64,000 nucleotides of DNA, from positions 1,318,712 to 1,382,711 of the forward strand of contig CP075526.1 of NCBI GenBank assembly GCA_025808555.1, read 5' to 3'. The number at the start of each line of letters is the position of its first letter. The stretch's first letter is position 1. A program made the translations under genes and the position numbers. The notes under the pieces are model-generated. The model saw nothing but the letters and a program-made list of their open reading frames with translations, was not told the DNA's origin and did not search any database. This document shows positions 57,999 through 62,499 of the stretch, piece after piece. This DNA comes from Anaerolineales bacterium (GTDB lineage Bacteria; Chloroflexota; Anaerolineae; Anaerolineales; UBA11579).

Positions 57999-58634
57999 AT
58001 GGAACGACTTGAAAATATCGCAGAGACGATACGGGCGGACTTTGATGCGCAGACCGCGGCGCGTGACACCGCGCTGGGCCAGGCGCGGCAGTTGACGCGG
58101 CATTGCTCGCAGGCCATCCGCGCCATCCACCGAGATGAGCACGACGTGGCGGCCGGCGAGCTGAAGGCAGCAGCCGAGCTGGCGGATGCGTTGCGGGCCG
58201 GCTTGAAAGAGTTTCCCGACCTGTACTTTGCCGGGTATACGCAGGATGCACTGAAGGAGTACGCCGAAGCCAACATTGTGAACGCATTGGTAAACAACGG
58301 CAGCCTGCCGAACCCGCAGGACTTGAAGGTGGAATCGGCCACGTATTTGCAGGGCTTGTCTGAAGCGGCAGGTGAACTGCGCCGCCGCTGCCTGGATATC
58401 TTGCGGCACGGGCATTCTGATGAAGCTGAGCGCCTGCTGGGGCAGATGGATGACATCTATGCGGTGCTGGTGACGATGGACTACCCGGATGCGGTGACGC
58501 GCGGATTGCGGCGCCTGACGGATATCTGCCGCAGCCTAGTGGAGCGCACGCGCGGCGATATGACGATCAGCCTGCGCCAGCAGCGACTGGAAGCCAGCCT
58601 GCAGGCGCTGGAAGAGAAACTGAAGAGCGCATGA
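57999..58634 (+). CDS. Translin-family protein
   Basis: A 211-residue all-helical protein matching the translin/TRAX superfamily, mostly known from eukaryotes and archaea, where it binds single-stranded nucleic acid and, with TRAX, cleaves RNA. Family-typical segments are ARDTALGQARQLTRHCSQAIRAIH, GYTQDALKEYAEANIV and GLRRLTDICRSLVERTRGDMT. The acidic residues of TRAX-type active sites could not be confirmed. The gene ends in an ATGA overlap with the Cas4-like N-terminal gene. Confidence 0.8.
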   Translation: MERLENIAETIRADFDAQTAARDTALGQARQLTRHCSQAIRAIHRDEHDVAAGELKAAAELADALRAGLKEFPDLYFAGYTQDALKEYAEANIVNALVNNGSLPNPQDLKVESATYLQGLSEAAGELRRRCLDILRHGHSDEAERLLGQMDDIYAVLVTMDYPDAVTRGLRRLTDICRSLVERTRGDMTISLRQQRLEASLQALEEKLKSA

Positions 58635-58864
58635 GCACGCAGTGGATCAAAGCCTCTGACATCGGCGAGTATTTGTATTGCCAGCGCGCCTGGTGGCTGC
58701 GCCTGCAAGGCGCAGCCAGCGCCAACGTGCAGGAGCTGGCTGAGGGCACACGCCAGCACGCCCGTCACGGGCGTGGCTGGCAGCTGGCGGGAACGCTGCG
58801 CGTGCTGGCGATTGGGCTGGCCGTAGTGGCAATGATCCTGCTGGTACTGCAAGTGGTGGGTTGA
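58631..58864 (+). CDS. N-terminal part of a split membrane Cas4/Dna2-like nuclease
   Basis: A 77-residue protein. Residues 1-48 match the start of Cas4-like nucleases: SDIGEYLYCQRAWWLRL with the first cluster Cys17, then ELAEGTRQHARHG with the conserved Gly and His. A transmembrane helix (LRVLAIGLAVVAMILLVLQVV) follows and the frame stops at TGA. The next gene starts 3 bases later in the same reading frame and holds the rest of the nuclease, so one stop codon splits an ancestral gene. Confidence 0.75.
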   Translation: MSTQWIKASDIGEYLYCQRAWWLRLQGAASANVQELAEGTRQHARHGRGWQLAGTLRVLAIGLAVVAMILLVLQVVG

Positions 58865-58867
58865 GGT

Positions 58868-59383
58868 ATGTACGCTGTACTGGCCGCTTTTCTGTTGCTG
58901 CTGGCATTGCTGCTGTTGTGGGTGAGCACCCGACAGCGCGGCGCACTGGGCTTGCCCAGCGGGCAGGTGGTGTACTCGGATACGGGCGTGGAGCGGCGGC
59001 TGGAGCAGCCACTGATGGACGAGGCATTGGGCCTGATTGGCCGCCCGGATTATTTGGTGCAGAATGGGGACGGCCTGGTGCCGGTGGAAGTCAAGAGCGG
59101 GCGCACACCGCGCAAGCCGTACGAATCGCATATTTATCAGTTGGCGGCCTACTGCGTGCTGGTGGCGCGCACTTTTCAGCAGCGCCCAGCCTATGGCATT
59201 ATTCGTTATCCGCAGCGCAGTTTCCGGGTGGAGTTTAGCGCCGCGCTGGAAGCCCAGGTGCTGAGCCTGCTGGCAGCCATGCGCCAGGGACTGGCGCATG
59301 GCGAGTTGCATCGCTCGCACAATGTGGCGGCGCGCTGCGCCGCCTGCGGCTACCGGCAGGTATGCAGTGAGCGGATACACTAA
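58868..59383 (+). CDS. C-terminal part of a split membrane Cas4/Dna2-like nuclease
   Basis: A 171-residue protein starting with a transmembrane helix (LAAFLLLLALLLLWV) and then the nuclease core: Asp61 (GRPDYL), Glu74-x-Lys76 (VPVEVKSG) and the QxxxY motif (Gln91, Tyr95 in HIYQLAAYC), all typical of PD-(D/E)XK Cas4/RecB-type nucleases. The three C-terminal cluster ligands Cys157, Cys160 and Cys166 are present; the fourth is Cys17 of the upstream gene. No ribosome binding site at good spacing is visible, so translation may depend on reinitiation. Confidence 0.8.
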   Translation: MYAVLAAFLLLLALLLLWVSTRQRGALGLPSGQVVYSDTGVERRLEQPLMDEALGLIGRPDYLVQNGDGLVPVEVKSGRTPRKPYESHIYQLAAYCVLVARTFQQRPAYGIIRYPQRSFRVEFSAALEAQVLSLLAAMRQGLAHGELHRSHNVAARCAACGYRQVCSERIH

Positions 59384-59387
59384 GCCT

Positions 59388-60260
59388 ATGGCTGAGAAGA
59401 ACGCAAGCCAATTCAAGCATGTGGCGGTGCTGGCCAGCGCAAGCAACACTCAGGCGCTGAGCCTGTGCGCTGAGGTGGCAGACTTTTTGCGGGGCTTGGG
59501 GTTGGCGGCGGACAGCGGCCTGCTGCAAGGCCAGGCCACCCAGCAGCGGCTCAAGCAATGGGGCAGCGACCTGGTGATTGCCCTGGGGGGTGACGGCACT
59601 ATGCTGCGCGCCGGGCATGTGTGCGCGCCGCTGGATATTCCATTGATCGGCATCAATCACGGCAACTTTGGCTTCCTAATTGAACTGGGCCCACACGAAT
59701 GGCAGCAAACCCTGCCGCGCCTGGTGAGCGGCGAGTACTCGACCGAAAAGCGGATGCTGTTGCATGTGGAGCTGTGGCGCGGCGACAAGATCGTAGGAAC
59801 CTGGCAAGCGCTCAACGAAGCCATGGTGGGGCGTGGCCGGGTGGTGCGCCCAGTGCACCTCAGTGCCAGCCTGGACGGCCACCCGCTGACCACGTATGTA
59901 TCGGACGGGCTGATCATTTCCACGCCGACCGGTTCGACTGCGTATGCGCTGGCCGCGGGCGGCCCGATCCTGCCGCCGACGCTGCGTAATCTGCTGCTAC
60001 TGCCGGTGGCGCCGCACTTGAGCGTTGAGCGGGCGCTTGTGCTGGCGGAAGGCGCCAGCATCAGCGTGGAGCTGGCCCGCGGCGATGAAGCCGTGCTGAG
60101 CGTGGACGGGCAGGCGCCCGAGGCGATGGAGCTGGGCGACCGCGTTGCAGTGCGGGCCAGCGAGCACAGCCTGCGCTTCCTGCGTTTCCGCGAGGCGAGC
60201 TACTTTTACCAGCGCCTATTGTCTCTAATGGCTAACAACCCTTCAACTGGAGCCGCATGA
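59388..60260 (+). CDS. nadK: NAD kinase
   Basis: Makes NADP from NAD. 290 residues with the GGDGT phosphate-binding loop (VIALGGDGTMLRA) and GINHGNFGFL, and the later conserved GDEAVLSVDGQ-type region. I chose the ATG at 59388, 4 bases after the Cas4-like gene. An ATGA overlap links it to the next gene. Confidence 0.95.
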   Translation: MAEKNASQFKHVAVLASASNTQALSLCAEVADFLRGLGLAADSGLLQGQATQQRLKQWGSDLVIALGGDGTMLRAGHVCAPLDIPLIGINHGNFGFLIELGPHEWQQTLPRLVSGEYSTEKRMLLHVELWRGDKIVGTWQALNEAMVGRGRVVRPVHLSASLDGHPLTTYVSDGLIISTPTGSTAYALAAGGPILPPTLRNLLLLPVAPHLSVERALVLAEGASISVELARGDEAVLSVDGQAPEAMELGDRVAVRASEHSLRFLRFREASYFYQRLLSLMANNPSTGAA

Positions 60261-60772
60261 CGACTACCTATTGTGCAAATCATCCAGACCGTGAGACCGG
60301 TCTGCGCTGCAATAATTGCGAGAAATACATCTGCGCTCAGTGCGCGGTACATACGCCTACCGGCTACCGCTGCAAGGAATGCGTGCGCGGGCGCCAAAAG
60401 GTGTTCGAGACCGCCACCACTGCTGATTTTGTTGTGGCTTTTGTAGTGGGCGCGTTGCTTTCGGGCATTGGGGCGTTCATTGCGATGCGGATCGGTTTCT
60501 TCACGCTGTTCCTGGCGCCGCTGGCTGGCAACCTGATCGCAGAGGCGATCCGACGGCTTACGGGCCGCCGCCGCTCACCGCGCTTGTTCCGGGTGGCAGC
60601 GGTGGCGGTGGGCCTGGGGGCGGCGCCGTTCGTGCTGCTACCGCTGGCGTATATCTTGCTGGGCGGCGCGGGCATCCGCACGTTTGTGGCAGTGCTATGG
60701 CCGCTGATCTATCTCTCGCTGGCTGTTTCTTCCACCTATTACCGCCTGGCGGGCATTGAACTCAAACGCTAA
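60257..60772 (+). CDS. B-box-type zinc-finger membrane protein
   Basis: A 171-residue protein. The N-terminal 40 residues are a Cys/His cluster (YCANHPDRETGLRCNNCEKYIC, then CAVHTPTGYRCKEC) like a B-box or rhomboid-associated zinc finger. Four spans follow. Proteins of this design occur in Chloroflexota and Actinobacteria with unknown roles. It overlaps nadK (ATGA) and recN (TAATG), so it is part of the operon. Confidence 0.8.
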   Translation: MTTTYCANHPDRETGLRCNNCEKYICAQCAVHTPTGYRCKECVRGRQKVFETATTADFVVAFVVGALLSGIGAFIAMRIGFFTLFLAPLAGNLIAEAIRRLTGRRRSPRLFRVAAVAVGLGAAPFVLLPLAYILLGGAGIRTFVAVLWPLIYLSLAVSSTYYRLAGIELKR

Positions 60773-62499
60773 TGCTGACCGAACTACGCATTCAGAACTT
60801 CGCCATCATTGAGGACCTGACGCTGGAGCTTGGCAGCGGTTTGGTGACTTTTTCCGGCGAGACCGGCGCGGGCAAATCGATCCTGATCGATGCGGTGGAA
60901 ACTTTGCTGGGCGTTCGGGCCGACGCCAGCCTGATCCGGGCGGGTGACGAACGCGCCACGGTGGAGGGTACTTTCCGCATCCCGGATGCGGCCCGCGAAC
61001 AGATCCACGCCATTTTGCAGCGCGAGGAACTGCTAGACGACCCGGACTATTTGCAGATCGCGCGCGAATTCCGGCGCGAAGGGCGCAATGTGGTGCGCAT
61101 CAACGGCCGCCCGGCCACCGTGGCGCTGGTGCGCGAGCTGGGCGAACTGCTGATCGACCTGCACGGCCAGTCTGAGCATCTTTCGCTGCTGCGCGTGCCG
61201 GCGCACCGCCTGCTGTTGGACCGCTATGCGGGCGTGGAGCGCGAGCTGGCGGCGTACCAGAAGACCTATGGGCAATTGCAGGAACTGCGGCGCGAGCTGG
61301 CCAGCCTGCGCGAGGCCGAGGCGGACGCTGCCCGACGGATCGAGCTGCTGAGCTTCCAGGTGCAGGAAATTGAGGCCGCCAAGCTGCAGCCGGACGAGGA
61401 AGCCAGCCTGCGGGATGAGCGCACCCGCCTGGCGAACGCCGAGAGCCTGGCGGCCAACGCCACCTTGGCGCTGGCCGCTCTGGACGAGAGCCAGGATGCA
61501 GAGGCGGCTACGGCGAGTGACCGCATGGGTGCGGCGGTGGAAGCGCTGGGGGCGCTGGCAAGGGTGGACGGCTCGCAGGCCGGGCTGGAAAACCGCGCCC
61601 AGGGACTGTTGGACGAGATGGCTGATATTGCCCGCGAACTGCGGGCGTACCTGGAGCAGATCGAGTTCAACCCCAAGCGGCTGGAGGAAGTGGAAGAGCG
61701 CCTGGCCCTGCTGCAGAACCTGAAGCGCAAATACGGCGAGGATATTGCCGCGATCGTGGCGTTTGGGCAACGTGCCCGCAAGGATCTGGAGAACATCTCG
61801 AACGCGGAAGAGCGGCTGGACGCTCTGCAGAAGGGCGAGGGCGAGCTGCTGGCGCGCCTGGCGCAGGAGGCGCAGGCGCTGGCCGCCAAGCGCCACAGCG
61901 CGGCGGATGAGCTGAGCAAGGGTATTGAGGTGGAGTTGGACGACCTCAAGATGGAAGCCGCGCGCTTTGGGGTGGAGTTTGGTACCACGCCGGATGCGAA
62001 TGGGCTTGAGATCGGCGGCGAGCGAGTGGGCTTTGATGCGTATGGCCACGAGACGGTCGAGTTCATGGTGGCTCCCAACCCTGGCGAAGGGCTGAAGCCG
62101 TTGGTCAAGATCGCCTCGGGCGGTGAGACGGCGCGCTTGATGCTGGCGATGAAGAACGTGCTGGCGCGTGCCGACCACACGCCCACATTGATATTCGATG
62201 AGATCGATCAGGGGATTGGCGGCCGCGTGGGCAGCGTGGTGGGCGAGAAGCTATGGCGCCTGGCGCGAGCACATCAAGTATTGTGTGTGACGCACCTGCC
62301 GCAACTGGCGGCGTTCGGTGACCAGCACTTTAAAGTTGAAAAGATCATGAACGATGGCCGCACGCAAACGCAAGCCGTGCGTTTGAAAGATGACGCGCGC
62401 GTGAACGAATTGGCTAACATGTTTGGCGAAATAAGTGAAGGAACTTTGCAATCGGCGCGCGAATTAATGGATGCCGTGCGCGCCACTACAAAGGCATGA
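60772..62499 (+). CDS. recN: DNA repair protein RecN
   Basis: SMC-like ATPase in double-strand break repair. 575 residues: N-terminal Walker A FSGETGAGKSILIDAVETLLG, long coiled coils, and the C-terminal ABC signature IASGGETARLMLAMK with Walker B LIFDEIDQGIGG. Start ATG overlaps the previous stop. No SOS box was recognised directly upstream, which fits its position inside an operon. Confidence 0.96.
   Translation: MLTELRIQNFAIIEDLTLELGSGLVTFSGETGAGKSILIDAVETLLGVRADASLIRAGDERATVEGTFRIPDAAREQIHAILQREELLDDPDYLQIAREFRREGRNVVRINGRPATVALVRELGELLIDLHGQSEHLSLLRVPAHRLLLDRYAGVERELAAYQKTYGQLQELRRELASLREAEADAARRIELLSFQVQEIEAAKLQPDEEASLRDERTRLANAESLAANATLALAALDESQDAEAATASDRMGAAVEALGALARVDGSQAGLENRAQGLLDEMADIARELRAYLEQIEFNPKRLEEVEERLALLQNLKRKYGEDIAAIVAFGQRARKDLENISNAEERLDALQKGEGELLARLAQEAQALAAKRHSAADELSKGIEVELDDLKMEAARFGVEFGTTPDANGLEIGGERVGFDAYGHETVEFMVAPNPGEGLKPLVKIASGGETARLMLAMKNVLARADHTPTLIFDEIDQGIGGRVGSVVGEKLWRLARAHQVLCVTHLPQLAAFGDQHFKVEKIMNDGRTQTQAVRLKDDARVNELANMFGEISEGTLQSARELMDAVRATTKA

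Follow-up and report, generated by a model that had tools for sequence, protein, structure and literature searches.

The 64-kb stretch of an Anaerolineales bacterium genome analysed here (contig CP075526.1, positions 1,318,712 to 1,382,711; hereafter the window) contains two adjacent small open reading frames (ORFs), which very probably encode two membrane-held subunits, N and C, of one Cas4-family (RecB-like, PD-(D/E)XK, Fe-S) DNA nuclease. The evidence was computed and consists of the presence of two genes, their conservation and co-occurrence in relatives, the topology signal, and the full Cas4 fold obtained when the two products are joined.

Two ORFs share the Cas4 signature

Both ORFs were found where a preliminary description of this DNA had placed them, in one frame and separated by a TGA codon, with the next ATG three bases further on (Table 1). 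The cas4 profile of NCBIfam, TIGR00372, matched the N-half ORF weakly over model positions 2-44 (E 4e-4) and the C-half ORF over positions 52-179 (E 5e-20), the latter match exceeding the curated cut-off. Jointly the two ORFs cover the profile except for positions 45-51, which correspond to the site of both membrane helices, and no further TIGR00372 match was present in the whole 2.24-Mb single-contig genome. The C half also exceeded the cut-off of PF01930. When the C half alone was used as a sequence query, the PDB returned nothing; searching the PDB with profiles returned Cas4 chains.

The anatomy described earlier for each half, a Cas4 start motif, one Cys and a membrane helix in N, and a helix, Asp61, Glu74, Lys76 and three Cys in C, was found to be correct. 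One invariant residue had been missed, His43 of the N half, which belongs to RecB motif I; its counterparts are His62 of SSO0001, a metal ligand, and His94 of Pcal_0546, a proposed ligand (PMC4176176). Conservation was followed in a close comparison set of 101 related genomes, whose loci were fetched and inspected on the upstream side for the N half. Cys17, Gly39 and His43 were retained in 74/74 N halves, and Asp61, Glu74, Lys76, Gln91, Tyr95, Cys157, Cys160 and Cys166 in 78/78 C halves. Neither protein alone carries the full motif set or all four cluster Cys, because the break falls between RecB motifs I and II.

With the motif-I His on N, motifs II and III and QxxxY on C, the 1+3 Cys layout, the profile match and the fold, the pair has the features of the Cas4 family, except that it is not one chain: two genes were seen here, as in every close orthologue that was examined. 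A single chain is customary for Cas4 rather than catalytic, and the pair was filed as a Cas4 variant. No cas1 was detected in the genome, so that the pair is not encoded with cas1/cas2 as a CAS-Cas4 would be, and no CRISPR-like array was detected within the window, to which the array search was confined. This agrees with the earlier description of a solo Cas4-like protein having no array or cas genes nearby. The pair is Cas4 by motifs, profile and fold, and solo-Cas4, that is cas4 outside CRISPR-cas loci, by context.

The split is conserved among relatives

The C half was present, without internal stop, in 79 of the 101 related genomes, and the N half lay directly upstream in 74 of these 79 loci. 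Of the five other loci, two are truncated at the end of a contig, and the remaining three belong to genomes that carry the N half elsewhere. About one third of the pairs have both halves in the same frame, the rest being distributed over the other two frames (27/21/27 among 75 named loci), and the junction stop of same-frame orthologous pairs is TGA, TAA or TAG. The spacing between the halves exceeded 350 nt in 17 of 80 named loci. Within the window's genus, the ratio of nonsynonymous to synonymous substitution rates (dN/dS) was 0.11-0.58 for N, a short and noisy estimate, and 0.02-0.20 for C, indicating purifying selection on both halves. The shared frame of the two halves in this genome is a coincidence and, judged from these sequences, the split is ancient and conserved, with no broken gene.

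These wider gaps most often contain a same-strand ORF of about 210 codons, seen between N and C at some 15 named loci, L201, L209 and L241 among them; it is alike between genomes and appeared repeat-like by eye.

Two f41-family genomes (loci L148 and L157) carry the halves naturally fused in frame through a hairpin linker. Both fusions come from draft genomes and both lack the motif-II Asp; they back the architecture, not the activity. A C half with membrane helix and cluster Cys, having lost at least one catalytic residue, was observed at L164, L167, L168, L148, L151, L157 and L159.

N and C are retained together, with or without linkage

Among the 101 related genomes, both halves were found in 78 and neither in 21, while one genome each had a single half: in G068 this was C, located at the edge of a contig, and in G061 it was a weakly matching N. 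The survey was extended to a phylum sample of 400 genomes, 86 of which had a strong C match; an N match was present in 86/86. The two halves were adjacent in 65 of these genomes, within 5 kb in 10 and unlinked in 11, the unlinked pairs being on other contigs in eight cases and on the same contig at distances of 182 kb, 0.89 Mb and 2.8 Mb in three. A two-subunit enzyme would be expected to keep both partners even where they are unlinked. The picture was less clear for more distant C matches (70-141 bits), which were accompanied by an N match at E 1e-4 in 16/36; weaker N-like ORFs adjoined most of the distant C matches inspected.

Predicted topology and structural model

Each half contains one hydrophobic stretch of membrane-crossing length. 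Arg/Lys counts were 3.0 before the N helix versus 0.28 after it, with 72/74 sequences biased in this sense, and 0.06 before the C helix versus 3.1 after it (77/78 in this sense). According to the positive-inside rule, both soluble parts are predicted to be cytoplasmic, with the cut ends of the hairpin pointing outward.

An AlphaFold model was built for the pair read through the TGA, from an alignment of 58 sequences. It reached a predicted local distance difference test score (pLDDT) of 95.2 and a predicted template-modelling score (pTM) of 0.90, the hairpin being formed by helices 33-76 and 82-105. Foldseek and VIA-align ranked Cas4 first (8d3l, E 1e-6), and the model aligned to 7mi4_A with Z 19.5 and 2.9 Å over 181 residues, spanning model residues 1..250. 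The joined chain, as modelled, is a full Cas4 fold into which a two-helix hairpin is inserted. The analysis thus supports the proposal of the preliminary description that the halves make up one Cas4-like Fe-S nuclease in two parts, with a membrane hairpin where it is broken. The natural fusion L148 gave a model with pLDDT 84 and Z 15.9 to 7mi4.

The pair also occurs on plasmids outside the phylum

A tblastn search of plasmids recovered the same pair on pSINAC03 of Singulisphaera acidiphila, on PALBO2 of Paludisphaera borealis and on plasmids of Bacillus subtilis. In the plasmid pairs that were read, a small 'hypothetical protein' with a Cys, a G..xH motif and a membrane helix directly precedes a C protein, which has an N-terminal membrane helix and is annotated 'PD-(D/E)XK' or 'Dna2/Cas4'. 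The B. subtilis N protein aligned with the N profile over 70 columns, including the membrane part (hhalign 98.6%). When the alignments were combined, the residues retained were Cys, Trp, Gly and His in N, and Asp, Glu, Lys, Gln and the three Cys in C. An N subunit that is called a 'hypothetical protein' is easily overlooked, and the C half alone then resembles a truncated solo-Cas4.

On the B. subtilis plasmids, the pair lies between a YoaA/DinG-type helicase gene upstream and an Hfq-like gene downstream. The operon of plasmid NRS6107_2 (L292:12455-15776) also encodes a 77-aa protein, besides this helicase, both Cas4 subunits and the Hfq-like product. The copy on a plasmid of Planctomyces sp. 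SH-PL62, whose C half is disrupted and which has an IS701 transposase gene upstream, is an example of a truly broken pair. Matches on Rubrobacter and Nitratidesulfovibrio plasmids were discarded as they are annotated as ordinary CRISPR Cas4. In viral contigs, the B. subtilis C half as query returned no relative, and a closer alignment returned one short match; no relative was found in the phages searched.

Comparison with known Cas4 and RecB-like nucleases

CAS-Cas4 proteins (TIGR00372/PF01930; SSO0001, Pcal_0546 and the Cas4 of Cas4-Cas1-Cas2; PDB 4ic1, 4r5q, 7mi4 and 8d3l) share the RecB motifs, QxxxY, 1+3 Cys and fold with the pair, but are single soluble chains encoded with cas1/cas2, whereas two membrane proteins are found here in a genome without cas1. 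Solo-Cas4, reported to be monophyletic in many Chloroflexi, is likewise located outside CRISPR loci and mostly vertical (PMC5704561). The solo-Cas4 counted in that survey is probably the C half; its main text contains neither the word transmembrane nor the word split, in contrast to the split membrane pair described here. The fold is also shared with the helicase-nucleases AdnAB, AddAB and Dna2, which have Fe-S nuclease domains of Cas4/RecB type (Z 15 for AdnA, 12 for Dna2 and 10.6 for AddB). In those enzymes the nuclease forms part of the helicase chain and not, as here, two free-standing membrane proteins; the helicase gene upstream of the B. subtilis plasmid pair adds to this likeness. The Argonaute-associated Cas4 family protein ACE1 (PDB 9iab, 9iac) is a further Cas4-family fold outside CRISPR (Z about 12). 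It is a single chain in 9iab and 9iac, and no Argonaute gene was recognised beside the pair of the window.

The open-licence papers searched contained no earlier account of a Cas4 that is split or membrane-bound. The function of solo-Cas4 is an open question (PMC5704561), and the present data give it a predicted place, the inner membrane face, and a built-in control, since two proteins would have to meet. The B. subtilis plasmid pair brings the question within reach of a standard laboratory organism. If confirmed, the pair would represent a clean natural split enzyme, with active and cluster sites spread over two polypeptides and no constraint on their frame, stop codon or linkage.

Proposed mechanism and alternative explanations

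Because the active-site and cluster residues are divided between N and C, a complete nuclease would form only when both subunits are together at the membrane. N would supply cluster Cys 1 and the motif-I His, and C would supply the Asp, Glu, Lys, QxxxY and three Cys. Each subunit would contribute one membrane helix, and the two helices, pairing as an antiparallel hairpin, would bring the soluble parts together on the cytoplasmic face. Such an assembly would be physical, would bind an Fe-S cluster and would have nuclease activity, its completed Fe-S and metal sites acting on DNA at the inner membrane face. We consider it likely that an obligate two-subunit, membrane-assembled Cas4-type nuclease of this kind is present in much of the phylum and on Bacillota and Planctomycetota plasmids, and that it forms a distinct Cas4 branch devoted to non-CRISPR DNA handling. 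Tentatively, it could serve repair or recombination by trimming DNA ends at the membrane.

In this genome the two halves lie in one frame interrupted by a single TGA, which would suit a cas4 gene that a nonsense mutation had broken recently, and the preliminary description had indeed presented the locus as one protein split by a single in-frame stop, either recently split or inactivated. The orthologues refute such a pseudogene, which we regard as practically excluded: all close ones examined are split, in each of the three frames and with any of the stop codons, sometimes with a gene interposed, unlinked or far apart, the motif residues are invariant and both halves are under purifying selection. 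The frame stays open past the TGA, as would be the case if the codon were a sequencing error, or were recoded as Trp or selenocysteine to yield one protein. Orthologues again contradict this, and leave it hardly any probability, since most are in other frames and the same-frame ones carry TGA, TAA or TAG; nor are they fused with Trp at base 58862, as had been envisaged earlier. A third alternative holds that C is a complete nuclease alone and that N, arising from a duplicated N-terminus of Cas4, is a membrane protein in its own right with a regulatory or anchoring task. The C half exceeds the TIGR00372 cut-off by itself, and two Cas4 proteins, Pcal_0546 and SSO1391, did not need the cluster to cut DNA, since their Cys mutants lost it and remained active (PMC4176176). 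However, the motif-I His and cluster Cys 1 are missing from all C checked and present in all N, the joined model is a complete Cas4 fold, and no C half lacking N occurred among the 86 strong cases, which makes this explanation improbable.

The same two-subunit enzyme might instead serve in defence, by degrading foreign DNA that enters at the membrane. The predicted tether facing the cytoplasm would be compatible with this role, and a Cas4-like nuclease of Synechococcus elongatus that reduces plasmid transfer or maintenance provides a precedent (PMC10653904). Yet the pair is nearly universal in Anaerolineales, in a housekeeping operon with RecN, plasmids themselves bear it, and no defence genes were recognised among the neighbours inspected by eye. 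Defence appears rather unlikely, and DNA-end processing by the two-subunit nuclease is preferred because of the RecN, SSB and helicase neighbours. Several points weigh against the two-subunit nuclease itself. The joined chain is a modelling device and says nothing on the assembly of two separate chains. Catalytic residues are lost in both natural fusions and in some lineages (f33 and part of f41), and part of the family may be non-catalytic. By analogy with the cluster-less Pcal_0546 and SSO1391 mutants (PMC4176176), C alone might keep some activity. Finally, the genomic surroundings of the pair are not kept outside Anaerolineales, and the case for a role in repair is the weaker for it.

Features of the window and genomic context

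Table 1. Positions of the two Cas4-type subunits, their predicted functional elements and the neighbouring genes in the window.
Feature	Position	Strand	Description
Translin-like gene	57999-58634		Directly upstream of N; Pfam Translin E 9e-5, just under cut-off
N subunit, 77 aa	58631..58864	+	Cas4 N-terminal motif, Cys17, His43, C-terminal membrane helix
Cys17 codon	58679..58681	+	Predicted first Fe-S ligand; invariant 74/74 N halves; 1+3 Cys layout like Pcal_0546, SSO0001
His43 codon	58757..58759	+	RecB motif I, predicted metal ligand; invariant 74/74; motif equivalent of SSO0001 His62
N-subunit membrane helix	58793..58858	+	Predicted N-in/C-out; hydropathy, charge bias; model helix 33-76
N-subunit TGA stop	58862..58864	+	Ordinary stop, no lesion; orthologues vary in frame, stop codon, linkage
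C subunit, 171 aa	58868..59383	+	N-terminal membrane helix, RecB motifs II and III, QxxxY, three cluster Cys
C-subunit membrane helix	58874..58945	+	Predicted N-out/C-in; charge bias, structure model
Asp61 codon	59048..59050	+	Motif II; invariant 78/78 C halves
Glu74 to Lys76 codons	59087..59095	+	Motif III ExK; invariant 78/78 C halves
Gln91 to Tyr95 codons	59138..59152	+	QxxxY motif; invariant 78/78 C halves
Cys157, Cys160, Cys166 codons	59336..59365	+	Other three predicted cluster ligands; invariant 78/78 C halves
NAD kinase-like gene	59388..60260	+	Directly downstream of C; putative, called from sequence
B-box-like zinc-finger and membrane-helix protein	60257-60772		Just before RecN; putative, called from sequence
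RecN	60772..62499	+	Downstream, operon context

The start of the N subunit overlaps the translin-like gene upstream in an ATGA. Among the 80 named Anaerolineales loci, the B-box-like membrane protein was found downstream of C in 68 and RecN in 65, several others being truncated, and the cultured Anaerolinea thermolimosa IMO-1 (L225) is among the Anaerolineales with this context. The NAD kinase-like gene between C and the B-box-like gene was seen in the window. Elsewhere in the phylum the pair is retained and the Anaerolineales context is not, and no conserved neighbour was recognised there. SSB, DUF3467 and the translin-like gene precede N in about a quarter of the named Anaerolineales loci. 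The translin-like gene, whose best NCBIfam models are those of haloacid dehalogenase superfamily protein, was observed beside the pair in 21/80 Anaerolineales loci and in G110.
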